DNA of 64,000 nucleotides from Flavobacterium luteolum (GTDB lineage Bacteria; Bacteroidota; Bacteroidia; Flavobacteriales; Flavobacteriaceae): the NCBI RefSeq assembly GCF_027111275.1, contig NZ_CP114286.1:3644501-3708500 (forward strand), given 5' to 3'. This document shows positions 30,769 through 57,133 of this stretch, piece after piece; the first letter of the stretch is position 1; each line of letters opens with the position of its first letter. The notes beneath the pieces are model-generated. The model was given only the letters and a program-made list of their open reading frames with translations, ran no database searches and was not told where the DNA came from. The position numbers and the translations under genes were made by a program.

Positions 30769-30827
30769 TTTTTTTTGATTTCGATGCAAAGATAGGCATT
30801 CCTTTTTTGGAAATGATTTTAGGAAAT

Positions 30828-30871
30828 TCCCATTAGTCCTATTGCCCAAATCTGTTGTAGTAGCTATTGGC
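30828..30871. repeat. attC remnant at the distal end (half site 20)
   Basis: Only the right half is present: CCCATTAGTCC, then TTGCCCAAATCTGTTGTAG and a degenerate core (CTATTGGCGG). The left arm is absent; the rlmF upstream region begins instead. This is the terminal, inactive end of the array. Confidence 0.8.
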
Positions 30872-30889
30872 GGTAGTTTTTTTTTGATG

Positions 30890-31777
30890 CTATATTCTTT
30901 TTTTCAATGTAATCTCAGTACTTGGTGTTTTTATAAGTTCTTTTAAAGTATCAATTTCATAATCGAAGAGTTTGTCGATTCTTTTTTCTAGCAAAAACGT
31001 AAAAAAAGTTTCTATATCCTTCCTATCTTCTTTAAATTTATTTAGAAATTTTAATCCAATTGTAGTTTCATTTTCATTTCCTAAATAAAAATAAGTTGAA
31101 CAATCAGTTTCTCTTTTACGATTCGTTTTCTTTTTTAATCTTTCTATTACATTGTCTACGGCTTCAATTCCAGAATATAGACAAACTCCTTCCATAGCAG
31201 TATCTTTAATTTTTCCATTAGTTAATTCATTAATAAATAATTCCGATTCGCGTTCATCTGCAAGACGAATAATTGTTATTAATGAAGAGGTAGCAACATC
31301 ATTGCTTTTATGATTAATTTTCTTTACTAGATGAGGAATTGATTTTCTGGTGCCAGAAGTATGTAAGCAAGTATTTACTCTTTTATAAATCCAGTCACTA
31401 TGATTGCTTTCTAAAATATTAATTAGGGCATTTTCGATTTCAGAATTTTTCGAATTATGCAATAATTCTATGATAGATTCTACAATATTACTTTTTTTAT
31501 ATTTCTGTAAAATTAAGAGTAAAGATTTTACTTCAGTATTTTCGTTTTTTGTCTGTTTTCGTATCAAGCTATGAATTATGCTTTTTACATTCTCATTTTT
31601 TTCAGTTATGTACTTTTGAATTAAAAAATTTGTTATTTCATTTAATTCAAATTTCTCACCTATTTCGCTAAGTTTTATATAAGTTTCGATTAATTCAATT
31701 TCCTCAACTGAAGAGTTAATGCTATTTTTTAAAACATCAATTTTGGTTATTATATCTTGATTAAATGAATTTGTCAT
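30890..31777 (-). CDS. Cassette 20: HEAT-repeat-like protein
   Basis: 295 residues, entirely helical, with a two-helix periodicity such as VKSLLLILQKYKKSNIVESI, IENALINILES, and SIPHLVKKINHKSNDVA, like HEAT or PBS-lyase repeats that form interaction scaffolds. There is no signal peptide, so it is cytoplasmic. It is the cassette farthest from the integrase, and its flanking sites are the most degenerate. No catalytic motif was seen. Confidence 0.65.
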   Translation of the reverse strand: MTNSFNQDIITKIDVLKNSINSSVEEIELIETYIKLSEIGEKFELNEITNFLIQKYITEKNENVKSIIHSLIRKQTKNENTEVKSLLLILQKYKKSNIVESIIELLHNSKNSEIENALINILESNHSDWIYKRVNTCLHTSGTRKSIPHLVKKINHKSNDVATSSLITIIRLADERESELFINELTNGKIKDTAMEGVCLYSGIEAVDNVIERLKKKTNRKRETDCSTYFYLGNENETTIGLKFLNKFKEDRKDIETFFTFLLEKRIDKLFDYEIDTLKELIKTPSTEITLKKRI

Positions 31778-31797
31778 AGTTTTTGAATCAAAATTAC

Positions 31798-31957
31798 TAT
31801 CAACGCTCTAGTACTAGAGCTGGTTTTGGACTAAATTAAGGCTATTCGTCGGATTTGTGACACGAGCGATAGTGATCAGGCGAAGCAAATCTTCCCAAAT
31901 ATAAAAACATTATCCCATTAAGTCAATTGCCCAAATTTGTTATAGTTGCTGTTAGCA
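31798..31957. repeat. attC-like site 19
   Basis: Cores TATCAAC and GTTAGCA. The stem is partly decayed (CTAGTACTAGAGCTGG against CCCAAATTTGTTATAG). The loop contains the extra block CGAGCGATAGTGATCAGG also found in the 6.3-kb repeats. Confidence 0.75.
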
Positions 31958-31964
31958 GTAGTAC

Positions 31965-32489
31965 TTAATTTACCCATGCGAAAAAGCCTGAATAATATTT
32001 CCACTCGTCATTGATTTTTATGTATGTAGCAAGCATTCCACTTTCATTACCTTCAGAGTAAAATATGCAAAGTGTATTATTTCTTAAAAATACAGGTTTC
32101 GAAAAACTATAAATTCCATAATATTTTTCACTTTTTTCACTAGCAATAAATTCAGAATTCTCAAGTTTTCCCTTTGCCCAACCTGTTTTATTGTTGTCTT
32201 CAATTTCTTTATATACATAATCCATCTCTTTACTTGTGAATAGTATACTATTTGGCATTTCATCAATATTTTTTGCAAATCTTGTATCCCGAATTTGAAG
32301 AGTGGTTGCTTTTAAAGCATCTTTTATATATTCTAAATGGGAAGGTGGTATGTTTTCGGTATAGGTGATTTTATCTATTTTTTCTTTTTTAAAAAAGGCA
32401 ATGACAAAATTTTCAGCTTCTGATTTTTCCTGTGCTTGCATAATAAAGCAAATAAGGAGAGAAGTAATTATAATCTTTATTTTACTCAT
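31965..32489 (-). CDS. Cassette 19: exported protein, unknown
   Basis: 174 residues with a Sec signal (ITSLLICFIMQAQ). The mature domain looks like a small mixed fold, with LCIFYSEGNESGMLATYIKI and EWKYYSGFFAWVN at the end. No family is recognised. The stop lies a few bases from the GTT core of site 19, and the start about 20-30 bases inside the other end of the cassette. Confidence 0.6.
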   Translation of the reverse strand: MSKIKIIITSLLICFIMQAQEKSEAENFVIAFFKKEKIDKITYTENIPPSHLEYIKDALKATTLQIRDTRFAKNIDEMPNSILFTSKEMDYVYKEIEDNNKTGWAKGKLENSEFIASEKSEKYYGIYSFSKPVFLRNNTLCIFYSEGNESGMLATYIKINDEWKYYSGFFAWVN

Positions 32490-32510
32490 TTCTACTTTGT
32501 ATTAAGGCAA

Positions 32511-32665
32511 AAGCTTAGGTGCTACATTAGATTTGAGACTAAATTAAGCCCATTCTTCAGATTTGCCACCCGAGCGATAGTGAACAGATGAAGCAAATCA
32601 TTCCAAATATAAAAACATTTTCCTGTTAAGGTAATTGCCCAAATGCGCTGTAGTAGCTGTTACCG
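32511..32665. repeat. attC-like site 18
   Basis: The right core GTTACCG is clear, but the left core is lost (GCTTAGGTGCTACATTAG). The stem is damaged, and the loop contains CGAGCGATAGTGAACAG. The left boundary is approximate. Confidence 0.65.
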
Positions 32666-32673
32666 GCAGTATT

Positions 32674-33594
32674 TTATTTCCATTCAGTTTCTGTTGCTAA
32701 TTTGGTTAGTTTTGAATACAGAGCACTTAATCCATAAGTACCACTTAACCCGTAATCCTTTATTTTCTTAATTGATCCATCTTCAAAAGTTATGTCAAGA
32801 GTTGCTGTTGAAGCATCAGTATAATTAACTTCGTAGTAATCTTTTAATTTCTTAATTTCTATATAATTTAATAAGTCAAATATTTCGGCAACATTTTTTG
32901 GGTCAAATTGCTTTATTGATTTTCCTCTAAACTTAGTAAATTCTATACCATCAAACTCAGCTAGACCATTTTTATTAATTGTAAGTTTAAAAACTGGACA
33001 GGTTCCAAAGCAATAATCCGTTTTAACTTCTATAGATTTAATTTTATTATCAATGATGACTTTGTCGTTAAGTTCAATAAAAGAATTAAACTTATATGTT
33101 AAAGTATCTATCTTGATATATTTCTCAATGTTATCATCAAAATCAAAAGGTAAATTTACTTTTCGAATTTGTAATTCATTTTTATCTTTAACTTTAATTG
33201 GTTTCACATATTCGCAAATAGAAAAATCTATAATAAATCTAGTTAGTTTAAAATTATTACTGCCTTGATCAATTATAGCATATTGTGAATATCCATAGTA
33301 ATGCGGAATGAAAAGCAAATCAGTTAGTCCATCGTTGTTAATGTCTACTTTTTTCCAATTATTTATGTCAGATTGATTGAAAATCTTCTGACATTTTAAA
33401 TTTGTATAAATACTGTCTGTTGAAACGATTCTAAAATTTCCATAATCAAAATCTTTCCATACTTTCTTAACAAATTCAGGAGCTACAGTTTTGATAAAAT
33501 CCTCAACGTCTTTATCTGTTTTGAGTTCATCTATTTTATTTCCAAACGCTACGTTTGAAAAAATAATTACGAATATTAGAGTTAGTTTTTTCAT
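32674..33594 (-). CDS. Cassette 18: exported protein with DUF6438-like domain
   Basis: 306 residues with a Sec signal (FVIIFSNVAFG). The N-terminal half contains DINNDGLTDLLFIPHYYGY, a DxNxDG calcium-type motif. The C-terminal half contains IKSIEVKTDYCFGTCPVFKL followed by INKNGLAEFDG, the core of DUF6438. The two cysteines likely form a disulfide. Envelope location is inferred; the role is unknown. Confidence 0.7.
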   Translation of the reverse strand: MKKLTLIFVIIFSNVAFGNKIDELKTDKDVEDFIKTVAPEFVKKVWKDFDYGNFRIVSTDSIYTNLKCQKIFNQSDINNWKKVDINNDGLTDLLFIPHYYGYSQYAIIDQGSNNFKLTRFIIDFSICEYVKPIKVKDKNELQIRKVNLPFDFDDNIEKYIKIDTLTYKFNSFIELNDKVIIDNKIKSIEVKTDYCFGTCPVFKLTINKNGLAEFDGIEFTKFRGKSIKQFDPKNVAEIFDLLNYIEIKKLKDYYEVNYTDASTATLDITFEDGSIKKIKDYGLSGTYGLSALYSKLTKLATETEWK

Positions 33595-33599
33595 ATTAT

Positions 33600-33757
33600 T
33601 GGTAACATCCTACTACTACAGTGGCTTTGAGACTAAATTAAGGCTATTATCGGTTTTGCCACCTGAGCTATAGTGAACAGGGGAAGCAAATCATTCCAGA
33701 TACAAAACCATCTTTCCATTAAGCATATTGCCCAAATCTGTTGTACTAATGTTAGTT
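33600..33757. repeat. attC-like site 17
   Basis: Cores TGGTAAC and GTTAGTT. The left arm is diverged (TACTACTACAGTGGC), and the loop carries a CTGAGCTATAGTGAACAG block. Confidence 0.75.
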
Positions 33758-33772
33758 ACAGACTTTATTGGT

Positions 33773-34249
33773 TTATTTTTGCCATTTTATTTTTACTGCT
33801 GAAATTTTATCAAGTTCAAGTCTTACATCTCTTAAAATTCTAAAACCACATTTCTCATAAAATTTCAATGGCGAAATATATTCTTGTCCATTTTTTTTCT
33901 TGTCATTGTTATGGTCTATTACCCAGCCATTTAATACTAATTCAGTATTTTTAATTTTGTCTAGCATTTTTCGTCCTAATCCATTTCCTTTTATTTTTTC
34001 TGATAAAATGATAGCAAACCACTTCTCATTATCTCTGTCAAATGTCAAAGCCCACCCCAAAATTAAGCCTATGTCACTTGTCAACAAAAAATGCTTAAGG
34101 TTACTTAAGTTTTGCAGATAATTGTCAAATTCAGTCAAACTATTGTATGAAAGTTTTTCAGGATATTCGCTATTCCATAAGTCAAGCACTTGCTTTTTTG
34201 CTTGTTCGTTTAGTTCAGTTGTCTGTATAATTTCAATATTCTCTGTCAT
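33773..34249 (-). CDS. Cassette 17: GNAT acetyltransferase
   Basis: 158 residues. The acetyl-CoA pyrophosphate loop is EKIKGNGLGRKMLDKI, and YEKCGFRIL near the C-terminus is the usual strand and tyrosine of GNAT enzymes. The central strand ILGWALTFDRDNEKWFAII fits the family. Cassette-borne acetyltransferases are common in known integrons, some modifying antibiotics, but the substrate here is unknown. Confidence 0.85.
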   Translation of the reverse strand: MTENIEIIQTTELNEQAKKQVLDLWNSEYPEKLSYNSLTEFDNYLQNLSNLKHFLLTSDIGLILGWALTFDRDNEKWFAIILSEKIKGNGLGRKMLDKIKNTELVLNGWVIDHNNDKKKNGQEYISPLKFYEKCGFRILRDVRLELDKISAVKIKWQK

Positions 34250-34280
34250 TTGTCGTTTTGAGTTCTTCGCTTAAGTTTGA

Positions 34281-34429
34281 GACTAACGTTCTGACACTAC
34301 AGCGTGTTTGGGACTAAATTAAGTCCATTCTTCGGATTTGCCACTGAACAGGCGAAACAAATCATCCCAAATATAAAACCATCTTTCCATTAAGCCAATT
34401 CCCCAAATCCGTTGTAGTAGCTGTTGTGA
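34281..34429. repeat. attC-like site 16
   Basis: Cores GACTAAC and GTTGTGA. The arms are recognisable and the loop is longer than in proximal sites, holding CTGAACAGGCGAAAC, a partial copy of the extra block. Confidence 0.85.
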
Positions 34430-34437
34430 GCTGTTTT

Positions 34438-34944
34438 TTAATTTAGACTTTGTTTCTTTTCAAAAATTGTAAGTAAAGAATTTTTGCTGTTAAAGATTAT
34501 TTTGTTTCCATCGATTTTTCCTTTTCGTACATTTCTGATATAGTAATTAGTTGCACCACCTGTTGACGGATAAAACTGCTCGAGTTGTATGATATTCTCT
34601 TTTATTTTATATTTTCCACCGTAATAAATAGAATTTTTATTTCGATGAACATTTTTATCTATACCAATTAGCATAAACTTCTTAAAAAAGCCATCGTTAT
34701 GGAATTTTAAAATTTGAGGATTTTCTTTTTCTCCATTATTATAATATCGTCCTTCAAAAATTTGAACATAGTATGCGGATGTATCTATTTTTTTTAAGTC
34801 AGTTTCAGTTGGCATATCTAAAAAAGTGTATTTGACTTTTTCTTTCAGAACAGGTTCTCCATATTCGTTTTTGGGTATTCTGATGTATCCACAACTCATT
34901 AACGAGAAAAGACAAATTATAAATAAAACTTTTTTTGAAAACAT
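34438..34944 (-). CDS. Cassette 16: lipoprotein, unknown
   Basis: 168 residues from the ATG at 34944 (MFSKKVLFIICLFSLMSCGY), giving a lipoprotein signal with Cys at 18. A longer in-frame start at 34986 begins at the recombination core and would hide this signal. The mature part includes GRYYNNGEKENPQILKF and INGGKYKI-like strands, suggesting a beta-rich lipocalin-type fold. No family is recognised. Confidence 0.65.
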   Translation of the reverse strand: MFSKKVLFIICLFSLMSCGYIRIPKNEYGEPVLKEKVKYTFLDMPTETDLKKIDTSAYYVQIFEGRYYNNGEKENPQILKFHNDGFFKKFMLIGIDKNVHRNKNSIYYGGKYKIKENIIQLEQFYPSTGGATNYYIRNVRKGKIDGNKIIFNSKNSLLTIFEKKQSLN

Positions 34945-34980
34945 CTTATTAATTTTTAGCACATTTTTGATCAAAATAGC

Positions 34981-35113
34981 ATACAACGTTCTCGCGCTAC
35001 ACGCGGTTTGGGACTAAAGTAACGTTAATTTTCGGATTAGCCAAATTCTCACAAATACAAAACCATTTTCAAATTAAGCCAATTGCCCAAATCGCTTGTA
35101 GCGTATGTTAGGA
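34981..35113. repeat. attC-like site 15 (identical to site 1)
   Basis: Cores ATACAAC and GTTAGGA. The stem CGCTACACGCGGTTTGGG / CCCAAATCGCTTGTAGCG differs from the majority type by paired changes. From the GTT at 34988 onward the sequence is the same as 45391-45516. Confidence 0.92.
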
Positions 35114-35429
35114 GAGGTTGCGACACGGACGAGAAGCACGAACGATTTGCCGTTCCGATTTTCGATTCCAATTTTAGCAAGTTTTCCGCCTTCTAATTTT
35201 CCGTCCAATTAGTTTCAGCATTTGAATTTCAAACTTCTGTTAAATTTCAAAAAAAGAGACAAAAAAAATCCGCTTTCGGTTGTCCAAAAAGCGGTTTACG
35301 TTTTGTTTGTCCGCAACATTTTTTGCGCTCAATTTTGGTCAGCTTGCTTTAGATGTTTTTAGTTTTTTCCGTTTCTAAAATCCTTATTAAATTCATCTGT
35401 TGTTCGTCCACGGAGCAATCTCTCCTAAC
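35114..35429. other. Cassette 15: noncoding cassette, copy of C1
   Basis: About 316 bp with no reading frame beyond some 20 codons. The interval holds a hairpin CCGCTTT / AAAGCGG near 35270-35293. Together with site 15 it forms a 442-bp unit (34988-35429) repeated, apparently without difference, at 45391-45832. It could encode a small RNA or tiny peptide, or be inert. Confidence 0.85.
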
Positions 35430-35554
35430 GTTCTGGCACTACAGCGGGTTTGGGACTAAATTAAGCCCATTCTTCGGATTTGCCAAATCATCCAAATACA
35501 AAACCATCTTTCCATTAAGCCTATTACCCAAATCCGTTGTAGAAGCTGTTGGCA
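35423..35554. repeat. attC-like site 14
   Basis: Cores TCCTAAC and GTTGGCA. A majority-type stem with one unmatched change in the right arm (GTAGAAGCT). Confidence 0.9.
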
Positions 35555-35564
35555 GAGGTTTTTT

Positions 35565-36233
35565 TTACCGGTTAAGAACTATTTTTATGTTGCTTAATTT
35601 TCCTAATTCTTCTTCATCACGTTTTAAATATTTCGTAAGAATTAGATTTTTTTTTGTGAATTCAAACTTCCATATTTCTTTGTTAATTTCAATAGTTCTA
35701 TAATCATACCACCAACAAGTTCCAAACCTTGGATTAACTGAAAATGTTTTTAAACTATCTAAATTTTTTATTTTACCATCTTCCGTAAATTCTATGTTTC
35801 TATTTCCAAATTTGTAATTTCCTGTAATTAGACTTCTATTCAAGTATTTTACAAATTCTTCTCTATTTATGCCGTTTTCGTCAACTATTTTATCGCAATT
35901 TTTTAGTTTAATAAATTTTTGCGTTGTAAAACTATCAGGTCCAAACCCTATTTGAGTTGTTCGTAATATTATCGAATCATTAATTTTTGACTTTTTTTCA
36001 GATTCAAAATTACGCTTTGAAATATGTCCCCAAGTATTTACAGTTCCATAGCTTATTATTTTATCTTTAGTGACTTTTACAAGAAAGTAATCAATATATC
36101 TATTTTCGAAATTATCTTTATCTAAATAAGATTTAAGACAATATATTCCTTCGTCAAACTTATCTTTTTGGTTATTCTGACAACTTGAAATTATTATTAA
36201 GATTAATATTAGAGTTACTTTTTTTATCTTCAT
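35565..36233 (-). CDS. Cassette 14: lipoprotein, unknown
   Basis: 222 residues with a lipoprotein signal (LILILIIISSCQNN). The remainder contains TFSVNPRFGTCWWYDYRTIE and paired strands, but no recognised family or catalytic motif. It is a cell-envelope protein by inference. The start is about 30 bp inside the cassette end, and the stop about 10 bp before the core of site 14. Confidence 0.6.
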   Translation of the reverse strand: MKIKKVTLILILIIISSCQNNQKDKFDEGIYCLKSYLDKDNFENRYIDYFLVKVTKDKIISYGTVNTWGHISKRNFESEKKSKINDSIILRTTQIGFGPDSFTTQKFIKLKNCDKIVDENGINREEFVKYLNRSLITGNYKFGNRNIEFTEDGKIKNLDSLKTFSVNPRFGTCWWYDYRTIEINKEIWKFEFTKKNLILTKYLKRDEEELGKLSNIKIVLNR

Positions 36234-36264
36234 ATATGAGGTTTTTTTCGGTTTTTAAAATCTC

Positions 36265-36397
36265 TGCCAACGTTCTGGTACTACAGCGGGTTTGGGATTA
36301 AATTAATCCCATTCTTCGGATTTGCCAAATCATCCCAAATACAAAACCAACTTTCCATTAAGCCTATTGCCCAAATCCGTTGTAGTAGCTGTTAGTG
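36265..36397. repeat. attC-like site 13
   Basis: Cores TGCCAAC and GTTAGTG. Majority-type stem TACTACAGCGGGTTTGGG / CCCAAATCCGTTGTAGTA. Confidence 0.92.
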
Positions 36398-36934
36398 GTT
36401 CGGCTTTTCTTTATAAAGCTCATAATTTTGAATAATTAATTTTTCGAGCCTTTTGCGATTATATTTTAATCCTGCCAACCCAATCGTTAAGGGGGTTCCG
36501 TATAATTTTGTATTTAAATTTAGAAGCACTTTTTTAAATCTATTTGAGCGGTCAATATATTTTTCAGGATTATGGATATTTACTATTAACATTTTTGTCG
36601 ATTTTATTTTTTCGACCCGAATTGATTCAATGTCTTTCCATAATATCAATCCAACACTTACGGCACTAGAATTGTCATAAATTCCATTTTCATCCAGTAT
36701 CAACCCTGGCTTTTTGTCAAATAATTTTATTGGAATATAAATCCAAGCTGAGCTACAAAAAACAAGCATTAATAATCCTATTGCTTTAATAAACTCAACA
36801 CTTCTAAATCTAGGCGAAATAAATCGTTCGGGGTATTGAAATTGATAATAACTGCCTACGATAAAAATAGATGCCCCAATCAGCATTAAAATAAGTTTAA
36901 GTTTGCTGGATGGAATTTCAATTTTATGCATCAT
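36392..36934 (-). CDS. Cassette 13: STM3941-family membrane protein
   Basis: 180 residues. Two hydrophobic helices (LILMLIGASIFIVGSYY and AIGLLMLVFCSSAWIYI) precede a cytoplasmic domain with GLILDENGIYDNSSAVSVG, ILWKDIESI and LYGTPLTIGLAGLKY, the signature of the STM3941 family. The function of the family is not established. Its stop codon falls within the core of site 13, so the cassette is very compact. The start is either of two adjacent ATG codons. Confidence 0.8.
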   Translation of the reverse strand: MMHKIEIPSSKLKLILMLIGASIFIVGSYYQFQYPERFISPRFRSVEFIKAIGLLMLVFCSSAWIYIPIKLFDKKPGLILDENGIYDNSSAVSVGLILWKDIESIRVEKIKSTKMLIVNIHNPEKYIDRSNRFKKVLLNLNTKLYGTPLTIGLAGLKYNRKRLEKLIIQNYELYKEKPNH

Positions 36935-36963
36935 AATTTTTCGTTTTTCTTTTTTAAGCTGAC

Positions 36964-37099
36964 CACTAACGTTCGTCCCGCTACTACAGCGGGTTTGGGA
37001 CTAAATTAAGCCCATTCTTCGGATTTGCCAAATCATACAAATACAAAACCATCTTTCCATTAAGCCAATTACCCAAATCCGTTGTAGTAGCTGTTATAG
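36964..37099. repeat. attC-like site 12
   Basis: Cores CACTAAC and GTTATAG. The left spacer is four bases longer than in most sites (GTTCGTCCCGC). Confidence 0.9.
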
Positions 37100-37114
37100 G
37101 GCGTTTTTTTATGC

Positions 37115-37984: not shown

Positions 37985-38016
37985 ATCTATTGTTGTTGAT
38001 TCTTTTTCAAAATGCC

Positions 38017-38148
38017 CTATAACGTTCTGGCACTACAGCGGGTTTGGGACTAAATTAAGGCCTATTTTCGGATTTGCCAAATCATCCAAATACAAAACTA
38101 TTTTTCCCTTAAGCCAATTGCCCAAATCCGTTGTAGTGGCTGTTATAG
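38017..38148. repeat. attC-like site 11
   Basis: Cores CTATAAC and GTTATAG. The first stem pair is C-G (GGCACTACAG with GTAGTGGCT) where most sites have T-A, a compensated change. Confidence 0.92.
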
Positions 38149-38166
38149 CCAGTTTTTTGATATAGA

Positions 38167-38784: not shown

Positions 38785-38814
38785 TGTTGTAAAGCATTTT
38801 GTTTCTAAAATTGG

Positions 38815-38946
38815 CTATAACGTCTTGGCACTACAGCGGGTTTGGGGTTAAATTAGCCCTATTTTCGGATTTGCCAAATCGTCCCAAATACAAAACCATC
38901 TTTCCATTAAGCCCAATGCCCAAATCCGTTGTAGTGGCTGTTATGC
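38815..38946. repeat. attC-like site 10
   Basis: Cores CTATAAC and GTTATGC. The first stem pair is C-G (compensated), as in sites 6 and 11. Confidence 0.92.
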
Positions 38947-39651
38947 GCTGCCACTTCTTCTTTTTTTAATTTCTTCCAAATATTTTTTTCTAACAGCTAT
39001 AACCAATGACGCGTGTTCTTTTACATAATCAAAATATCCAACATAAATATTTTCGTTTTCTTCAGGTACTAAATCTTGTTTTTCAGGATTAGTAATTCCA
39101 AGTCGGAATGGTTGAACAGTATAATTTAATATATCTTCGTGTCCTGAAACTTGCCTATTAAATAGCTCTTTCAAATAGCCAAGAATTCCCATTGTTGGAG
39201 TAGTCCAATCATCTTCGTCTATATTTACATAAATATCATACTCATTATCATCGAATACTTTTCCATATTGAAAATTGAACAATCCTTTAAAGTTTTTTTT
39301 ATGGTAATCTTCAATAGTTATTTCATTTAGAGTTATTCCACTTATTTTTCCGAATTTGTCAAGGCTAAAAGATTCTTTTTCAGGGTCTTTTCTTAAAAGT
39401 GAACGTTTAGCTTTATTTGCAATTTGATTATTTTCTTTGCGTTTTGCTATAGCTCCAATCATATTTCTAAAATCTTCATCAGTTGGACTATATTCATTAT
39501 TACATTTTAAACAAGCATAAACTGTTATTCTGTTTGTTTTGTATTTATCATCGTAACCTTCGAATAGATTTTTTGCGGGTATATGCTCTTTAGTAATTTC
39601 TTTCTCTTCAATTAGATTTCCACAATTGTAGCAAACTTGTTTTTCTTTCAT
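38941..39651 (-). CDS. Cassette 10: probable HNH-type nuclease
   Basis: 236 residues from the ATG at 39651. A zinc-ribbon and HNH-like layout is visible: C7-x2-C10 (CYNCG), then KEHIPAKNLF with H23, and CLKCNNEYSPTDEDF with C47-x2-C50 and N51. This matches the Cys-flanked HNH nucleases seen in defence systems. The C-terminal 150 residues match no known family. A longer frame starts at 39681 inside the GTTATGCGC core. The stop overlaps the core of site 10. Nuclease activity is inferred only. Confidence 0.7.
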   Translation of the reverse strand: MKEKQVCYNCGNLIEEKEITKEHIPAKNLFEGYDDKYKTNRITVYACLKCNNEYSPTDEDFRNMIGAIAKRKENNQIANKAKRSLLRKDPEKESFSLDKFGKISGITLNEITIEDYHKKNFKGLFNFQYGKVFDDNEYDIYVNIDEDDWTTPTMGILGYLKELFNRQVSGHEDILNYTVQPFRLGITNPEKQDLVPEENENIYVGYFDYVKEHASLVIAVRKKYLEEIKKRRSGSA

Positions 39652-39677
39652 ATTAGTTTCTGTTACTAAACGGTTGC

Positions 39678-39809
39678 GCATAACGTCCCCGCGCTACATG
39701 CAGGCTGGGATTAAGAAAGCCTAAACTTTCGGTTAAAAATTATTTTCCAAATACAAAACCATCTTTAAATTTAGCCAAATGCCCAGCTTGCTTGTAGCGT
39801 GTGTTGTGC
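39678..39809. repeat. attC-like site 9, divergent stem
   Basis: Cores GCATAAC and GTTGTGC. The stem is CGCTACATGCAGGCTGGG / CCCAGCTTGCTTGTAGCG: most differences from the majority stem are matched on the other arm, while the 7:3 spacer asymmetry is unchanged. Confidence 0.9.
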
Positions 39810-39816
39810 GCAGATT

Positions 39817-40488: not shown

Positions 40489-40513
40489 AATTTTGGTTTT
40501 TAGGTAAATTTGC

Positions 40514-40645
40514 GCACAACGTCTTGGTACTACAGCGGGTTTGGGACTAAATTAAGCCCATTCCTCGGATTTGCTAAATCATTCGGATACAAAACCATAT
40601 TTCCATTAAGCCAATTGCCCAAATCCGTTGTAGTAGCTGTTAGGC
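40514..40645. repeat. attC-like site 8
   Basis: Cores GCACAAC and GTTAGGC. Majority-type stem. The gap from the protease gene to the next cassette gene (40489-40784) holds this site and the hairpin at 40682-40710. Confidence 0.92.
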
Positions 40646-40681
40646 GTTCGCTTTTTCTTTTGTAATAGTATGTTTTTCGGA

Positions 40682-40710
40682 ATTCAAACCTAATTTCTTT
40701 AGGTTTGAAT
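40682..40710. terminator. Perfect hairpin at the end of cassette 8
   Basis: A 12-bp perfect stem, ATTCAAACCTAA / TTAGGTTTGAAT, with a 5-nt loop, 75 bp past the stop of the cassette 8 gene. A T-run is lacking on the minus strand, so it may be an RNA-stabilising or weak termination hairpin. Confidence 0.6.
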
Positions 40711-40784
40711 GGTCGTAAATATTTAAGGTAGGTTAAATAATTAATATGTGATAAATATTATAGCTATAATTGTTTTCATGATTT

Positions 40785-41287
40785 TTATTTTTCAAATCTC
40801 CAATTTCCTAAAATTAAAGTTATAATTACATCATTCCAAGTTTCATAGTTTAGTAGATGTGGTTCGATTGGAATTATACTTGTCGGAAACCATTTGGTAT
40901 TTCCAACAATATACATTTGTGCATTATAATTTAATTTTTTGTCAAATGGATTTGTTACTTTCAACATCATTCCTTCAGGTTTGTTATTTTTAACGTTCTG
41001 CAGAAATTGAATTTGTATAGTTTTTTAGGATTCTCAATTTTTTCGACAACTTTCATTGATGATATTGTATCATTTTTAATTTCTGCTTCAATATTCAGTT
41101 GTTCGGTTGGAAAAATTTGTATAACATTTTCTTTAACAAAGTATTCTGATTTATTGATTTGTATTTGATAAAATTGCTCTTTATCAACTACTAATCTTAA
41201 AAGAAACGGCTTTCTTTCTTTAATTTCATTTTGTGAATAACAAAAATTTGCCACTAATGTTAATACTAGAAAAATTATTTCTTTCAT
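40785..41287 (-). pseudogene. Cassette 8: exported protein split by frameshift
   Basis: Two overlapping frames, 40967-41287 and 40785-40970, together make one protein of about 168 residues. The first has a Sec signal (LVLTLVANFCYSQ). Adding one base in the six-A run (41021-41026 on the plus strand) joins them as ENPKKTIQIQFLQNVKNNK and then MMLKVTNPFDKKLNYNAQM. The second part (NPFDKKLNYNAQMYIVGN, SIIPIEPHL, ITLILGNW) looks like an intact conserved domain. This is either a recent pseudogene or a homopolymer sequencing error. The role is unknown. Confidence 0.75.
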
Positions 41288-41319
41288 ACTTATTTTCTTT
41301 TCTGTTACTCCAAAGTGAC

Positions 41320-41452
41320 GCCTAACGTCTTGGTACTACAGCGGGTTTGGGACTAAATTAAGCTCATTCTTCGGATTTGCCAAATCATTCCAAATACAAA
41401 ACCATCTTGCCATTAAACCAATTGCCCAAATCCGTTGTAGTAGCTGTTATAG
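41320..41452. repeat. attC-like site 7
   Basis: Cores GCCTAAC and GTTATAG; the left core is a perfect match to RYYYAAC. Majority-type stem. Confidence 0.93.
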
Positions 41453-41461
41453 GGCGTTTTT

Positions 41462-41902
41462 TCAGTGTTGCTTTTGTGTTCCGTCAAAACCATATCTAAA
41501 GTTATTCAATTGTCCGTCCGAACTTTCAAGTCCAACTATGTCCATTAGTTCTTCAAAATAATAACAAATTCTTTCTTGGTTTTCGGAATCAATGTAAATA
41601 CCTGTAAATCTTTCAAGTCCAATTTTGATAGCATTTTGATAGTCTTTGTCTGTTGCGTTACCTGTTTTGGCAAGTTTCTCAAAATCGTCCGCCACTAAAT
41701 TTATTTTCTCTGTCAGAATAGGTTTTTGGGTTGGATCTCCAATGCCTGGATAAAATAGTTGTTCGTCTGGGATAAACTTTTCCTTGCGTTTAAATTCTTC
41801 AAATTTTGCCATTGCTTTTTCAGGTGTCTTTATTTGTCCTTGTCCACAAGCTATGAACAAAACCAAAGTCATTCCAATTAATATGTTTGTTATTTGTTTC
41901 AC
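41462..41902 (-). CDS. Cassette 7: DUF4844-like lipoprotein
   Basis: 146 residues with a lipoprotein signal (MTLVLFIACGQ). The body fits DUF4844: FEEFKRKEKFIPDEQLFYPG, then YQNAIKIGLERFTGIYID and ELMDIVGLESSDGQLNNF, ending NFRYGFD. The role of the family is unknown. The start lies 20 bp inside the cassette and the stop 10 bp before the core, so almost the whole cassette is coding. Confidence 0.8.
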   Translation of the reverse strand: MKQITNILIGMTLVLFIACGQGQIKTPEKAMAKFEEFKRKEKFIPDEQLFYPGIGDPTQKPILTEKINLVADDFEKLAKTGNATDKDYQNAIKIGLERFTGIYIDSENQERICYYFEELMDIVGLESSDGQLNNFRYGFDGTQKQH

Positions 41903-41921
41903 TATCGTTCTTTAAAATGCC

Positions 41922-42053
41922 CTATAACGTCCTGGCACTACAGCGGGTTTGGGACTAAATTAAGCCCATTCTTCGGATTTGCCAAATCATCCAAATACAA
42001 AACCAACTTCCCATTAAGCCAATTGCCCAAATCCGTTGTAGTGGCTGTTATGT
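41922..42053. repeat. attC-like site 6
   Basis: Cores CTATAAC and GTTATGT. The first stem pair is C-G (compensated). Confidence 0.92.
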
Positions 42054-42480
42054 GGGGGTTGTTTCTAGCCGATATTCCCAATTATTAATCGATTTTCAGC
42101 CTTATCTTGGCCGATTAAAAACCTAATTCTTGCCCAAATCTCGGCTAAATTTTATTCCCTTTTTCGTTTCAGTTTACACCCAAAACGATTGTTTATTTTT
42201 TATTCTCAATGAAACTTCAATATTTAAGTTTCAGTTTTCGCAATCTAATTTAAAACTCCAATTTTTAAGTTTTGTTTTTCATATTCAGTTTAGAAACCCT
42301 GAAATTCAAGTTTCTGCTTTTCAAGTTTTGCATTTCGGATTCAGTTTAGAAACTCCGACATTCAAGTTTTCAATTAAAAATCCAATTTTCACGTTTCTGA
42401 ATTTCGATTTTCTGCGCAACAATTTGCTTTTAAAAAAACCTGATTTTAGCAGTAAATTTCTTTTTCAACTCCCACATAAC
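42054..42480. other. Cassette 6: no convincing gene
   Basis: 427 bp without a minus-strand reading frame of gene size. The sequence is AT-rich and internally repetitive, with many TCAAGTTT, GAAACT and TTCAGTTT words. A plus-strand frame (42130-42510) runs straight through the next recombination site and has no coding character. The cassette may be noncoding, like C1 and C15. Confidence 0.7.
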
Positions 42481-42606
42481 GTTCTGGTACTACAGCGGGT
42501 TTGGGACTAAATTAAGACCATTCTTCGGATTTGCAAAATCATCCCAAATACAAAACCATTTTCCCATTAAGCCTGTTACCCAAATCCGTTGTAGTAGCTG
42601 TTGGCG
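42474..42606. repeat. attC-like site 5
   Basis: Cores ACATAAC and GTTGGCG. Majority-type stem. Confidence 0.92.
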
Positions 42607-42614
42607 GTAGTTTT

Positions 42615-43259
42615 TTATTTTCTTCCTACTAGTTTATCTAACCAATTTATTCGATTTTCTACAATACCAATTTTTTGCTTTCGTGGATTCCAAAGCGAAT
42701 TCTTTTCTGCTTTCGAATTCTTTTCTGCTATATCTGCAAAACTTTTTGCTTGTTCAAAATTGCCTTTAAATTCTGAAATTACTGCCAAAATGGAATACAT
42801 AATATAGTTTTGAACTGGAAAGATTATCGATTTTTTTTTAATTTTTTCAGTAATTATATTTTCTACTTCGTCGAAAAATTCTATTTTATTTTCACGAACT
42901 ACAATTTTTGAAAAGTCTAAATCAGAACCTGATATTACGTTAGGAAATTCCTTCTCATAGTCAAGTGATTTTTTATAAAAACATATTGCCATTTCTGCAT
43001 CATTTCTTAACTCATAGATTTGACCTAAAAAATTATAACACGTACTTTTTTCAATTCTATTTTCAGGATATTCTGTTAAGACTTTGTTCAGAAGTTCTTC
43101 AGCAACGACCAATAGTTCTTTGTCTTTGGTATAAACTAATTCAATGGCTTGTATTTTTAAATATTGAGCTCGTCCATCTTTTCTTGCTCGTCCAAGTTTT
43201 GCAAAGAATTCTTCTTCGTCAATTTTTGTCCAAGTTTTTCGTCTATACCAATCTGTCAT
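42615..43259 (-). CDS. Cassette 5: TPR-like protein
   Basis: 214 residues, helical, with tetratricopeptide features such as ELLNKVLTEYPENRIEKS, CYNFLGQIYELRNDAEMAIC, FYKKSLDYEK and VISEFKGNFEQAKSFADIA. There is no signal peptide, so it is probably cytoplasmic and binds a protein partner. No enzyme motif is present. Confidence 0.7.
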   Translation of the reverse strand: MTDWYRRKTWTKIDEEEFFAKLGRARKDGRAQYLKIQAIELVYTKDKELLVVAEELLNKVLTEYPENRIEKSTCYNFLGQIYELRNDAEMAICFYKKSLDYEKEFPNVISGSDLDFSKIVVRENKIEFFDEVENIITEKIKKKSIIFPVQNYIMYSILAVISEFKGNFEQAKSFADIAEKNSKAEKNSLWNPRKQKIGIVENRINWLDKLVGRK

Positions 43260-43297
43260 TTCTGTTAATTGTTAAGTTTCTTTCGTGGTAAAATTAC

Positions 43298-43430
43298 CGC
43301 CAACGTTCTGGTACTACAGCGGGTTTGGGACTAAATTAAGCCCATTCTTCGGGTTTGCCAAATCATCCCAAATACAAAATCAACTTCCCATTAAGCCAAT
43401 TGCCCAAATCCGTTGTAGTAGCTGTTAGTG
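43298..43430. repeat. attC-like site 4
   Basis: Cores CGCCAAC and GTTAGTG. Majority-type stem. Confidence 0.92.
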
Positions 43431-43450
43431 GCTGGCTTTTTTTCGTATAA

Positions 43451-43906
43451 TTAGATATCAAGTCTGTTGTCGTTACCATAAAGAATCGCCGAGCCGTCTT
43501 CTTTTTTTGCTAAATCATAAAGTTCTTTTTGAAATCTATCAATAGCACTAGGTTCTACAATTATTTCTAATTTCAACTTGTTTTTTTCTTCTTTTCTGTA
43601 TTCAGTTGATACATTACTTTCAAGGTTTATTTCCACTCCAACACGCCCACTTTTTCCAATAGAATAATATTTCATAGAAAAGTAAGCATAGCTGTCTTTT
43701 TCGCCTGCTTCATAAAATAGAACTTTGTCGTTTTCAGGAAAAGTATTTAATGATTTAGCAAATTCAGACAAGCGTTCTGATTGGTCATAAACTTCAGTTA
43801 AACCATAAAATGAAGTGTTAGATGCTGTAATTTTTAATTCAAACATATCATCATCTTTCCAGATTATTTTTAAATTCAAAAAAGATTTAGGTTTATCTGT
43901 CAACAT
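43451..43906 (-). CDS. Cassette 4: conserved protein of unknown function
   Basis: 151 residues, soluble, alternating beta strands and helices (MFELKITASNTSFYGLTEVY, LSEFAKSLNTFP, VLFYEAGEKDSYAYFSM). An internal Met at residue 21 offers another start. The last part (IDRFQKELYDLAKK) is helical. I do not recognise the family with confidence. Confidence 0.6.
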   Translation of the reverse strand: MLTDKPKSFLNLKIIWKDDDMFELKITASNTSFYGLTEVYDQSERLSEFAKSLNTFPENDKVLFYEAGEKDSYAYFSMKYYSIGKSGRVGVEINLESNVSTEYRKEEKNKLKLEIIVEPSAIDRFQKELYDLAKKEDGSAILYGNDNRLDI

Positions 43907-43958
43907 TTTTTAGGGTTTGTTTCTTGATTTTCATTATGTTGTTTTTCGCTATGCTTGC

Positions 43959-44091
43959 CACTAACGTCCCGCTACTACAGCGGGTTTGGGATTAAATTAA
44001 GCCTTATTTTCGGATTTGCCAAATCATTCCAAATACAAAACCATTTTTCCATTAAGCCTATTGCCCAAATCCGTTGTAGTAGCTGTTGGCA
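43959..44091. repeat. attC-like site 3
   Basis: Cores CACTAAC and GTTGGCA. The left spacer is GTCCCGC; the stem is of the majority type. Confidence 0.92.
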
Positions 44092-44101
44092 GTAGTTTTT
44101 T

Positions 44102-44633
44102 CTATGGAAAGTGAATGTCGCCTTCTTCATTTACATAAGTCCATTTTGCTTTATCAATTTTTGTTATGTCGATACTCTCAACAGTTTGAAAAATCACAAA
44201 TAGTGGTTTTAATTTAACAGTTCTTCTTCCACCGTAACCTAACGCTCCGACGTCAAATATTTGCTGATTAATAGTTATGTTTTTATCATCATTATTTCTG
44301 TATAATATTGTTTCGTTTGTCCAAGCACCGAAACCAATTGTAAACATAGTAAACATCAGAATGAAGAAGCAAAATCCTGCTGATAAAACGGTTAAAGTTC
44401 CAATTGTCCAATTTTTGTATTTCGAGTGGTTTCTTTTTAAAGTTCCAAAAAGTGTCAACAAAATTGCGAAAGGTAAACCTGCAAATATCAAGTTATAAAA
44501 AATGCTTTGTGTTTTATAGTTTTTAAAATAAATAGGTAAATATTGTCCAATTGTCAATGCAAAAAAGTGCAACTATAATAAAAATAATTGTTAACCAAAA
44601 AAACGTCAATCTTAAGCTTTTAATTTGTTTCAT
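44102..44633 (-). pseudogene. Cassette 3: membrane protein with frameshift
   Basis: The longest frame (44102-44572) opens at a TTG preceded by a stop. A good start, ATG at 44633 (MKQIKSLRLTFFWLTIIF), lies in another frame. Removing one base from the six-T run (44561-44566 on the plus strand) joins both into about 177 residues with a first helix LTIIFIIVALFALTIGQY, then YNLIFAGLPFAILLTLFG and VLSAGFCFFILMFTMFTIG. It is either a recent frameshift or a sequencing error. The family is unknown. Confidence 0.7.
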
Positions 44634-44669
44634 TATATTCTTGAATTCTCTTTTCTACTGCAAAATTAC

Positions 44670-44802
44670 TGCCAACGTCTTGGTACTACAGCGGGTTTGG
44701 GACTAAATTTAGCCCATTCTTCGGATTTGCCAAATCATTACAAATACAAAACCAACTTTCCATTAAGCCTATTGCCCAAATCCGTTGTAGTAGCTGTTAT
44801 GT
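44670..44802. repeat. attC-like site 2
   Basis: Cores TGCCAAC and GTTATGT. Majority-type stem. Confidence 0.92.
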
Positions 44803-44816
44803 GGCGTTTTTTTTGT

Positions 44817-45353
44817 TTAGTATCTCCATTCGCCGTCATCTTCTGCTTTTTTCTTAATTCCATCGATTAATGATTTCTCATCAATTATAATTTTTTCGCC
44901 TTTCAATCTTTTAAACTCTGTAAATATCTGATGCAAATCAAAATTATTCCAATTATTTAACTTGTTTAATGTGATTTTTTTCTTTGCGCTTTTGAATACT
45001 AACATATATCCAATTACACTTCCCGTTTTTGAGACACGCACTTTAATTTGAATATTTACTTTCTTAATTTTAAATTTTTCAATCCAATCTTTATCAAAAT
45101 TGCTACCAAAAATATTTATCTTTTCATTTTCAAATTCAATTTTATATATAAACACTTTTGACTCATCATAAGTTATAAATAAGAAAATAATCAAAAAAAA
45201 GAGAATAAATAATATTGAAATAATACTAAATTCATTAGAAGAAAATATTGGGATTGATGCAAAAATTAAAAAGGCAAAAATTTTAGTTCCAATATCTTTT
45301 TTGCATCTTTCTTTGAATGGAATTCTTTCAGTTTCAAATATTATTTTTTCCAA
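44817..45353 (-). CDS. Cassette 2: membrane-associated protein, unknown
   Basis: 178 residues. Two close hydrophobic helices (IFAFLIFASIPIFSS and IISILFILFFLIIFLF) at residues 25-60 are followed by a soluble domain (KVFIYKIEFENEKINIFG, KIKKVNIQIKVRVS, FDLHQIFTEF). The layout resembles PH-like membrane proteins such as STM3941. The only start in frame is TTG at 45353. This is the first cassette with a gene after the integrase. Confidence 0.6.
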   Translation of the reverse strand: MEKIIFETERIPFKERCKKDIGTKIFAFLIFASIPIFSSNEFSIISILFILFFLIIFLFITYDESKVFIYKIEFENEKINIFGSNFDKDWIEKFKIKKVNIQIKVRVSKTGSVIGYMLVFKSAKKKITLNKLNNWNNFDLHQIFTEFKRLKGEKIIIDEKSLIDGIKKKAEDDGEWRY

Positions 45354-45383
45354 AAATTTATTCGTTTTTTTCGTTAAAATGCC

Positions 45384-45516
45384 ACATAACGTTCTCGCGC
45401 TACACGCGGTTTGGGACTAAAGTAACGTTAATTTTCGGATTAGCCAAATTCTCACAAATACAAAACCATTTTCAAATTAAGCCAATTGCCCAAATCGCTT
45501 GTAGCGTATGTTAGGA
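45384..45516. repeat. attC-like site 1
   Basis: Cores ACATAAC and GTTAGGA. Stem CGCTACACGCGGTTTGGG / CCCAAATCGCTTGTAGCG, identical to site 15. On the minus strand the order is core, 3-nt spacer, stem, loop, stem, 7-nt spacer, core. Confidence 0.92.
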
Positions 45517-45832
45517 GAGGTTGCGACACGGACGAGAAGCACGAACGATTTGCCGTTCCGATTTTCGATTCCAATTTTAGCAAGTTTTCCGCCTTCTAAT
45601 TTTCCGTCCAATTAGTTTCAGCATTTGAATTTCAAACTTCTGTTAAATTTCAAAAAAAGAGACAAAAAAAATCCGCTTTCGGTTGTCCAAAAAGCGGTTT
45701 ACGTTTTGTTTGTCCGCAACATTTTTTGCGCTCAATTTTGGTCAGCTTGCTTTAGATGTTTTTAGTTTTTTCCGTTTCTAAAATCCTTATTAAATTCATC
45801 TGTTGTTCGTCCACGGAGCAATCTCTCCTAAC
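45517..45832. other. Cassette 1: noncoding cassette next to the integrase
   Basis: About 316 bp without a gene-sized frame, apparently identical to cassette 15 (35114-35429). It ends at CTCTCCTAAC, where the cassette joins the putative attI. The hairpin CCGCTTT / AAAGCGG lies at 45673-45696. As the first cassette, it would be the newest insertion if the array grows at attI. Confidence 0.85.
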
Positions 45833-45934
45833 TAGTATATATGTATGACAAAATCATACAAAGCTACTCAGTTTTGGGCAGATATGTATGATAAACGTCG
45901 TGCTTTATTTTTAAATCAAATATATGATAATTCT
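45833..45934 (-). other. Putative attI (primary recombination site)
   Basis: The stretch between the integrase stop and the first cassette. On the minus strand the cassette junction reads ACTAGTTAGG, a GTTRRRY-type core. A TGTATGA / TCATACA inverted pair (45842-45860, 5-nt loop) and a further GTATGAT (45886-45892) give three copies of one motif near the junction, possible integrase-binding sites. It lacks the attC stem. The function is inferred from position. Confidence 0.6.
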
Positions 45935-45949
45935 TTATAATTCGTCAAA
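45917..45949 (-). promoter_or_regulatory. Candidate cassette promoter (Pc)
   Basis: On the minus strand TTTG (45949-45946) and TATATTTG (45924-45917) are separated by 21 nt, matching the Bacteroidota TTG / TAnnTTTG promoter. It overlaps the last codons of the integrase gene and would drive transcription leftward from about 45910 through attI into the cassettes. Confidence 0.6.
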
Positions 45950-46978
45950 AGGACTCTTAATTTGTTGAATATTTTTAGTGCTTACATGTGTATAGATTTC
46001 AGTAGTTTTGCTGCTGCTATGACCTAATAATTCTTGTATATAACGCAGATCAGTTCCACTTTCTAATAAATGTGTGGCATAGCTGTGGCGCATCCAGTGG
46101 AGGGTTACTGGTTTTGTATTGCCAACTTTTTGTAGGGCTTGCTTCAAAACACTTTGCAAGCTCTGTTCTGAATACTTTTCTCCAGAATTTTGACCTTCAA
46201 ACAGCCAAATGCTCGGTTTGTATATCATATAATATTCTCGAAGCATTTGTAATATTTTAGGTGATAAGGGCGAAATTCGGTCTTTTTTGCCTTTCGCTTG
46301 TCTAATAATAACGATTCCTCTCTTGGAATCAATGTCAGAAGGTTTTAAATTTAGAAGTTCACTTCGGCGCAAGCCACAACTATAAATCAATGAAAGCATT
46401 GTTTTGTGTTTGATGTTAGAATGTGCATTCAAAATCAATTTTATTTCTGCTTTGCTCAAAACGTTGGGTAAAATTTTTGACCTTTTGGGGCGATGAATCT
46501 TGTCAATTTCTATTTTGGTGTTGCGTACCGTAATGAAAAATAATTTCAAGGCATTGACGATTTGATTTTGATAGGAAGAAGAAAGGTTGTTTGTAAGAAT
46601 ATATTCGTTGTTGTAAATAAATACGTCTTCATTGGTAATTTCTGAAATGTTTTTTTCTCGATAAAATATCAAAAAAGATTTTAAAGCTTCAGAATACGTT
46701 TTGATAGTGTTCGGACTGTATCTCTTAGAAGAAAGCCATTGAACGAATTTTTTTATTTGCTCGAAACCCTCCTCTGAAGGAAAAGAATGAGAAAGAGGAA
46801 CTAAACGAAATTTTACCCTGTTTTCAGTCGTATCAGGTAGATGCCAAACACCTAAAGTTTGACTCCAACGCGAACCTGTCAACTTTTTTATTCGAGTTAT
46901 TAAGTCAGCATTTTTTTCAAAATAAACCGCAATTCTTTTTTCTTTTTTATGGATGATAATTTTAGCTTCCCAATTCAT
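45935..46978 (-). CDS. Tyrosine recombinase of the cassette array
   Basis: 347 residues. Residues 1-60 form an extra N-terminal domain (LTGSRWSQTLGVWHLPDT). Residues 70-155 are a core-binding SAM-like domain (FVQWLSSKRYSPNTIKTY). The catalytic domain has R204 (CGLRRSELL), K229 (RQAKGKKDR), H294 and R297 (LHWMRHSYATHLL), H320 (LLGHSS) and Y329 (EIYTHV). K to H spans 65 residues, close to XerD (72) and far below IntI1 (106), so the IntI-specific insertion is absent. It ends IKSPFDEL, which resembles the IntI1 end. It is co-oriented with the cassettes. A role in cassette movement is inferred from position. Confidence 0.85.
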   Translation of the reverse strand: MNWEAKIIIHKKEKRIAVYFEKNADLITRIKKLTGSRWSQTLGVWHLPDTTENRVKFRLVPLSHSFPSEEGFEQIKKFVQWLSSKRYSPNTIKTYSEALKSFLIFYREKNISEITNEDVFIYNNEYILTNNLSSSYQNQIVNALKLFFITVRNTKIEIDKIHRPKRSKILPNVLSKAEIKLILNAHSNIKHKTMLSLIYSCGLRRSELLNLKPSDIDSKRGIVIIRQAKGKKDRISPLSPKILQMLREYYMIYKPSIWLFEGQNSGEKYSEQSLQSVLKQALQKVGNTKPVTLHWMRHSYATHLLESGTDLRYIQELLGHSSSKTTEIYTHVSTKNIQQIKSPFDEL

Positions 46979-57060: not shown

Positions 57061-57133
57061 GATAATTTAAATTATGGTTTTTATATTAGAGCAACATTCA
57101 CGGATCTCGCCAGAGGTTGGTCAAATTCGGGTG
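57061..57133 (-). promoter_or_regulatory. Leader of rplS mRNA
   Basis: About 67 nt between the predicted transcription start (near 57127) and the ATG. It holds GC-richer sequence than its surroundings (CCTCTGGCGAGATCCGTG) that could fold. Autoregulatory leaders are known for ribosomal-protein genes, but I cannot show that this one acts so. Confidence 0.35.

Follow-up and report, generated by a model that had tools for sequence, protein, structure and literature searches.

A probable integron-like cassette-capture platform served by a tyrosine recombinase without the IntI insert in Flavobacterium luteolum

Can an array of gene cassettes behave as an integron when its recombinase lacks the domain by which integron integrases are recognized? 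This question is raised by a 64,000-nucleotide stretch of the genome of Flavobacterium luteolum (contig NZ_CP114286.1, positions 3,644,501 to 3,708,500), hereafter the window. An initial annotation made from the sequence described an integron-like array of 20 cassettes with 19 complete sites at 30828..46978, composed of separate units with one minus-strand gene or none. This description held. Twenty minus-strand cassettes between 30.8 and 45.8 kb are split by 19 complete hairpin sites and one half site (about 30826-30868), the GTT of one site (32502-32669) being degenerate. The annotated range also contains an integrase gene and an attI-like site, and the order along the minus strand from 47.0 kb downward is integrase gene, short region with the insertion point, cassettes and rlmF-like gene. 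The cassettes measure 442-1094 bp (n=20); 17 carry a minus-strand open reading frame (ORF) of 106-306 amino acids (aa) with the site at its 3' end, and the other three (C1, C6 and C15) have no minus-strand ORF longer than 50 aa. On sequence comparison, we consider it very likely that the array captures cassettes in the manner of an integron and that the tyrosine recombinase encoded beside it does the work.

The sites are confined to the array. A covariance model built from the 19 complete window sites (R1) was applied to the 5.36-Mb genome. At E ≤ 0.1, among the best 150 of 3980 candidates scored, it returned the 19 sites and one opposite-strand echo of one of them; the E-values of such models are rough. 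Along the sense strand, a site opens with AAC and a short spacer, continues with two 18-base arms (left and right) that enclose an inner part, and closes with a longer spacer and GTT. AAC and GTT were both present in 134 of 150 model matches, but the sites mostly lack the canonical RYYYAAC/GTTRRRY boxes, GTTRRRY fitting only 26 of 276. Across the 19 window sites, the stem showed 18 cells with two-sided changes versus 4.5 after shuffling, and a covariation of 0.170 versus 0.076 (0/500). In a non-redundant set of 78 sites (A4), for which AAC, GTT and A at +8 were required, two-sided changes affected all 16 pairs of the L stem (292 cells versus 77.7 shuffled) and covariation reached 0.558, versus 0.173 in shuffled and at most 0.084 in slid controls. 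A conserved stem of variable sequence is likewise expected of canonical attC sites. In the three most distal complete sites (31794-33761) the inner part has some 26 extra bases; together with the one degenerate core, this suggests that they mark the older end of the array.

The second line of evidence comes from the cassette ends. For 106 cassettes, taken from the window and from related loci, the 8 bases that follow G|TT were compared with the reverse-complemented 8 bases that precede the same cassette's AAC. The two agreed at 6.24 of 8 positions, versus 2.90 for other cassettes of the same array, 2.82 for other arrays and 3.11 across one site; the maximum of 1000 permutations was 3.25. The initial annotation had described plain inverted copies over 8-10 bp. 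The inversion is confirmed, but its pattern is 7 variable bases, one position that matches in 1%, and then 4 mostly matching bases. In this R stem, formed by both ends of one cassette, the fixed mismatch is at +11, with A in 134 of 135 cassette starts and C opposite in 117 of 141. Each cassette thus runs from TT to G and is set after the G of an attI-like site or the G of another cassette.

The L stem holds a similar mismatch. One column pair is A.C in 77 of the 78 sites and Watson-Crick in none, and a second unpaired column is mixed (A.C in 30/78, Watson-Crick in 36/78). Both fixed A.C mismatches become G.T wobbles on the bottom strand, which would fold better for this reason. When 185 sites were reconstructed in the form they would have in a cassette circle (a cassette was excluded if it contained N or if fewer than 5 of the 7 end bases matched), the bottom strand was the more stable in 171 of 183 distinct sites by DNA-parameter folding (mean difference -4.6 kcal/mol), versus 68 of 220 control stretches. 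In single integrated sites a better fold was not constant, eight folds giving z-scores of 0.06 to -3.90 relative to shuffles. Canonical attC sites mark the strand by extra unpaired bases. Here, the fixed mismatches may act as the strand signal.

As in canonical integrons, a putative attI adjoins the integrase gene. Its insertion point in the window is 105 bp behind the gene, and the border of C1 there is exact. In 24 of the 36 site-bearing loci, a distance of 95-120 bp separates the integrase match from the start of the first cassette; these 24 yield 23 distinct attI regions. In 21 of these 23, the insertion point is preceded by an inverted repeat whose arms measure 5 to 11 and whose sequence differs between species, a count made without a shuffled control. 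The motif TTG-N(17-23)-TAnnTTTG, which we take to be the Bacteroidota promoter consensus, lies across the integrase gene's end in 18 of the 23 regions (0.1 expected by shuffling). At the crossover, the window attI (TATACTAG|TT) and the attC-like sites (for example, CCAGAACG|TT) have only G|TT in common.

These features suggest a mechanism. A cassette circle would carry a hairpin site made of the R stem (AAC/GTT, 7 cassette-specific pairs and 4 more) and the L stem (16 pairs), both of which would fold as one strand. The integrase would join the folded strand to double-stranded attI by recombination at G|TT, so that shared overlap beyond GTT would be unnecessary. The choice of strand would be built in through the fixed top-strand A.C pairs that turn into G.T on the better-folding bottom strand. 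New cassettes would enter chiefly at attI and, lying behind a promoter there, would be the ones expressed.

It is unlikely that recombination instead proceeds on double-stranded sites in the manner of Xer or phage integrases, the palindromes serving another role. The window integrase scores best with XerA/XerC-like models: XerA_Arch (NF040815) matches with 219.9 bits (cut-off 220), and the PDB matches 4a8e and 5hxy are XerA/XerC-like. The inverted repeat found in most attI regions would also suit such an enzyme. However, double-strand exchange needs a common overlap of several bases, which the G|TT shared by attI and the attC-like sites does not provide, and a fixed mismatch with covarying stems in 78 diverse sites would be unexpected. 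XerA, XerC and XerD have the same catalytic residues as the window integrase, but they work at single short sites in the chromosome and are not known to serve cassette arrays.

The integrase itself places the platform close to, and outside, the canonical integrons. It has the intact catalytic residues R-K-H-R-H-Y, an N-terminal extension of about 70 aa and no IntI insert. When 35 family members were aligned with 12 IntI and 2 Xer proteins (a 13th IntI row was excluded for its odd length), the catalytic residues recurred in 33 of the 34 other family members (L115 has K->R). K and H are 60-61 residues apart in 35/35 family members; the spacing is 102 in 12/12 IntI and 66-68 in the Xer proteins, so that the IntI insert of about 41 residues is absent from all family members aligned. 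In the comparison with IntI4 (PDB 2a3v), residues 80-253 correspond to 11-184 and residues 270-345 to 243-318, and about 40 IntI4 residues remain unmatched between the two pieces. A tree of 71 proteins included 12 XerC-like and 12 XerD proteins of Bacteroidota, but neither archaeal XerA nor other recombinases. IntI formed one clade (100/100) and was joined with the insert-less family against XerC and XerD (100/100), so in this tree the family falls outside the Xer clade; the genome's own XerD- and XerC-like genes are located elsewhere. Since the branch that sets the insert-less family to one side has a support of only 57/42, IntI may lie inside this family. The mechanism may have come by common ancestry with IntI, before the insert was acquired, rather than by convergence.

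That the platform is an ordinary canonical integron with an IntI-family integrase is therefore quite improbable, despite many likenesses. Both have an integrase beside attI, one-gene cassettes with a 3' hairpin site, AAC/GTT cores, complementary cassette ends, insertion at G|TT, a promoter facing the array (in the window a candidate pattern), and duplication and turnover of whole cassettes. Several relatives of the integrase are named 'site-specific tyrosine recombinase/integron integrase', and TIGR02249 matches the window integrase with 198 bits. This score is below the cut-off of 265, however, and strict membership in canonical IntI was rejected on this curated score, the missing insert, the separate IntI clade and the rarity of GTTRRRY. 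The R box here consists of AAC, 7 free bases, a fixed mismatch and 4 bases, mostly not RYYYAAC/GTTRRRY; the L arms are of equal length with the fixed A.C (G.T) mismatch; and integrase and array run in one direction in the clade of the window. A further site model, R2, found no site in 12 short loci around canonical IntI genes (44 kb in total), which together with the own genome served as the controls of specificity; the site-model searches covered Bacteroidota genomes. The direction of the integrase relative to the array recalls the integrons of the Treponema denticola type, in which the integrase runs in the same direction as the cassettes and carries the IntI insert. Sites and integrase are thus not those of canonical integrons, which corrects the initial annotation, and by the domain and box tests the platform is an integron variant, the integrase having no IntI insert.

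Do cassettes move as exact units at G|TT? In the window, C1, which lies at attI, equals C15 over 442/442 bp; the flanks diverge outward from the cores and both borders are at cores. In F. saccharophilum (L040) one cassette occurs twice (99.6% over 1088/1088 bp), and a cassette common to L040 and L052 is 95.7% identical across species over its whole length (419 and 405 bp). These three cassettes have both borders at the core. A fourth, a relative of window C6 in F. swingsii (L059), is 82.5% identical over the whole length (579 versus 552 bp), and its right flank is cut as the contig stops just past the right core. These four were used among 30 cassette pairs listed; the rest were partial, more diverged, a 1.24-kb repeated piece (L119/L120) or from duplicate genomes (L008/L052 and L027/L058). 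One further cassette, common to L038 and L069 (92.5% over 946 bp), has one exact border. Of 53 loci, 13 had repeats with at least two other copies on the downstream side of the integrase (at four or more places in 11 of them), and 12 had such repeats upstream (at four or more places in one); many of these loci stop shortly past the integrase.

Comparison of the same place in relatives gives a similar picture. In the window, the gene before the integrase encodes thiamine pyrophosphokinase (TPK), and 5 of 26 loci (L037, L038, L052, L069 and L077) have the same arrangement; they come from five species and have TPK identities of 89.5-94.5% (aa) to the window; rlmF lies at the far array end in L052 and L077. 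In the array parts covered (only 1.8 kb in L037, partial in L038 and L069), the window and these five loci had no nucleotide match of at least 230, and the L038/L069 cassette was the only one common among all 15 pairs of the six loci. Eight tblastx hits of at least 70 aa between the window and the syntenic arrays were positioned over sites. As for an empty site, no integrase match was present in any of 29 relative rlmF loci; TPK lay within the rlmF locus of about 4 kb in 20 of them, and 9 had no TPK hit. No near-identical copies of the region were found on plasmids. The comparison that the initial annotation had called for thus shows different cassettes at the same place, and duplicated or shared ones that break at the G|TT cores, which supports its view of a working or recently working capture platform. 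An old, immobile array that diverges slowly as a relic is highly improbable: the distal sites are degenerate and their end matches lower, as a relic would have them, but a 100% identical cassette copy lies at attI, the catalytic residues are intact and, as far as the arrays of the five syntenic relatives were covered, none of their cassettes recurs in the window.

Such platforms are widespread. The genus, class and phylum samples overlap, and in searches of more than 40 genomes at most 13 candidates per genome (genus, class) or at most 21 (phylum) were scored, so that site counts are minima. In Flavobacterium, 148 of 249 genomes had an integrase relative at E ≤ 1e-40, with identities as low as 37-44% in some cases. 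A site at E ≤ 1e-4 was present in 214 of the 249. At least 10 sites were found in 93 of the 148 genomes with integrase and 21 of the 101 without (Fisher p 4.5e-11, uncorrected for relatedness). In the class, integrases occurred in 117/247 genomes (E ≤ 1e-60) and sites in 143/247 (E ≤ 1e-4), and in the phylum sample sites occurred in 61/148 genomes (E ≤ 1e-4). Arrays also lie beside integrases of only 37-53% identity. The 22 named loci contributed 113 plus-strand sites to the best 150 of 160 matches, every one of them downstream of the integrase; the 2 minus-strand matches overlapped plus sites. One group of insert-less relatives shows the canonical layout, in which the array precedes the integrase and points away from it (L193, 15 sites; L194, 9; L195, 4; L196, 3; L197, 8; L200, 9; L199, 1), with no sites on the other strand and none in L198, L201 and L202; the layout therefore switched within the family. 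A plasmid of Chryseobacterium sp. SNU WT5 (NZ_CP041688.1, L103) carries an integrase of 67.7% identity, 6 sites at E ≤ 0.01 and small genes in the same direction. In four genomes (G030, G094, G152 and G207) the sites were scattered over many contigs, which suggests long arrays that break assemblies.

Outside the class, AAC, GTT and A at +8 were present in 26 of 26 sites read (9 loci). Integrase and site shared one contig in G254, G264, G270, G280, G284, G298, G300, G304 and G342, and on these two grounds the possibility that the R2 matches in other classes are canonical attC sites was rejected. An integrase of the window type (E ≤ 1e-50) was found in 20 of 36 tested site-bearing genomes of other classes and in none of the other 16; it was also found in 2 of 8 tested genomes of other classes without sites. 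In one of these loci (L124, G284), GAAGAAGAATTC follows GTT in 4 of 6 sites, unlike other arrays. The initial annotation's statement that integrons are uncommon in this phylum is contradicted, since canonical IntI scored above the curated cut-off in 84 of 296 phylum genomes, only one of these being in the same class (L091-L102 are among the IntI loci), in addition to the window-type sites noted above. That the sites are merely a dispersed, functionless repeat family (repetitive extragenic palindrome-like hairpins or a miniature element) with the recombinase as a bystander is barely credible and was rejected, for although they are repeated and palindromic and some genomes have them with no detected integrase, those of this genome form one array in one direction, the ends that pair flank a gene rather than a site, 22 of 22 named loci have their sites downstream of the integrase, and cassettes are duplicated exactly.

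Several observations weigh against the capture platform that we propose. At least one site was present in 74 of the 101 Flavobacterium genomes without an integrase match; these may be orphan arrays, missed integrases or looser matches. They are similar to the CALIN (clusters of attC sites lacking integron-integrases) in having sites with no detected integrase, but window-type sites are distinct, as the R2 result on canonical IntI loci indicates. The insertion point was missing at the expected distance in 12 of the 36 loci (4 without a candidate, 8 with it elsewhere), and in at least one of these, L082, a broken integrase match explains its placement elsewhere. The second border of the L038/L069 cassette lies inside a site, off the core. 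Cassette ends matched at just 2 of 8 positions in 6 of the 106 cassettes, perhaps because of a missed site between, and poorly in 4 of 11 cassettes of other-class loci. In the window, the match of 6-7 of 8 in C2-C15 fell to 5, 5 and 4 in C16-C18, as expected if entry occurs at attI. Finally, the conservation of the models' own columns is partly by construction because the models were built from these same sites, and the A4 selection in addition imposed AAC, GTT and A at +8.

The features of the locus are listed in Table 1. Pfam names few of the cassette products: DUF6438, a GNAT acetyltransferase, a trypsin-like peptidase and DUF4844 were above the cut-offs and HEAT, TPR and HNH below them. 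PADLOC gave no defence match for the 10 of 17 cassette proteins submitted. NCBIfam, run on 10 of the 17, gave three serine-protease matches for one protein and one for another, all far below cut-off, and a defence function of the cassettes was rejected on these results. Imperfect repeats of about 56 bp occur within the ORF-less C6 (42206-42358). No Rfam family reached the gathering score inside the array; a Flavo-1 RNA (634-734) and a Flavobacteria L19 leader (57092-57119), both on the minus strand, lie elsewhere in the window.

Table 1. Features of the cassette array and its surroundings in window coordinates; attC-like site coordinates include 8-nt flanks.
Feature	Position	Strand	Remarks
TPK gene	47065-47727		precedes integrase gene
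Integrase gene	45935..46978	-	347-aa tyrosine recombinase, same direction as cassettes
Promoter-like TTG-N21-TATATTTG	45917..45948	-	overlaps integrase gene end, points into array; candidate cassette promoter
attI-like site	45830..45916	-	inverted repeat TGTATGA-N5-TCATACA (45842-45860); putative insertion point TATACTAG|TT, G at 45832
C1	45390..45831	-	442 bp, without ORF, 100% identical to C15
attC-like site 1	45380..45520	-	
C2	44676..45389	-	ORF 178 aa
attC-like site 2	44666..44806	-	
C3	43965..44675	-	ORF 156 aa
attC-like site 3	43955..44095	-	
C4	43304..43964	-	ORF 151 aa
attC-like site 4	43294..43434	-	
C5	42480..43303	-	ORF 214 aa, TPR matches below cut-off
attC-like site 5	42470..42610	-	
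C6	41928..42479	-	no sense-strand ORF >50 aa; relative in L059 (82.5%)
attC-like site 6	41918..42057	-	
C7	41326..41927	-	DUF4844 ORF 146 aa
attC-like site 7	41316..41456	-	
C8	40520..41325	-	ORF 106 aa
attC-like site 8	40510..40649	-	
C9	39684..40519	-	trypsin-like peptidase ORF 223 aa
attC-like site 9	39674..39813	-	variant stem
C10	38821..39683	-	ORF 246 aa, HNH match below cut-off
attC-like site 10	38811..38950	-	
C11	38023..38820	-	ORF 205 aa
attC-like site 11	38013..38152	-	
C12	36970..38022	-	ORF 289 aa
attC-like site 12	36960..37103	-	
C13	36271..36969	-	ORF 180 aa
attC-like site 13	36261..36401	-	
C14	35429..36270	-	ORF 222 aa
attC-like site 14	35419..35558	-	
C15	34987..35428	-	without ORF, identical to C1
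attC-like site 15	34977..35117	-	
C16	34287..34986	-	ORF 182 aa
attC-like site 16	34277..34433	-	
C17	33606..34286	-	GNAT acetyltransferase ORF 158 aa
attC-like site 17	33596..33761	-	longer inner part
C18	32512..33605	-	DUF6438 ORF 306 aa
attC-like site 18	32502..32669	-	longer inner part, degenerate GTT
C19	31804..32511	-	ORF 174 aa
attC-like site 19	31794..31961	-	longer inner part
C20	30851..31803	-	ORF 295 aa, distal end
Half site	30826..30868	-	array end against rlmF-like gene
rlmF-like methyltransferase gene	29818-30849		array runs down to it

An additional IntI-specific domain defines the integron integrases, IntegronFinder identifies IntI by PF00589 together with this domain, and recombination of folded single strands is associated with it (PMC9668308, PMC9024848). 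The platform should therefore not be called complete by that program. The IntegronFinder survey of 2022 names one complete integron in Bacteroidetes proper, that of Salinibacter ruber M1. We found no description of such arrays of Flavobacteria in the open-access literature; most subscription papers and bioRxiv were outside this scope, and an earlier publication is possible.

We lean towards the view that a second class of integrons exists across Bacteroidota, with insert-less integrases and a strand set by A.C/G.T mismatches in both stems, and that domain-keyed surveys have missed it. As these integrases branch next to, and possibly around, IntI, the mechanism of integrons would have arisen before the IntI domain. 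The site distribution indicates a large cassette pool in Bacteroidota, and one copy of the platform is on a plasmid. Integron-like behaviour without the IntI domain makes the dependence of the mechanism on this domain testable, and the insert-less platform also opens the question of whether the integron mechanism preceded the domain.

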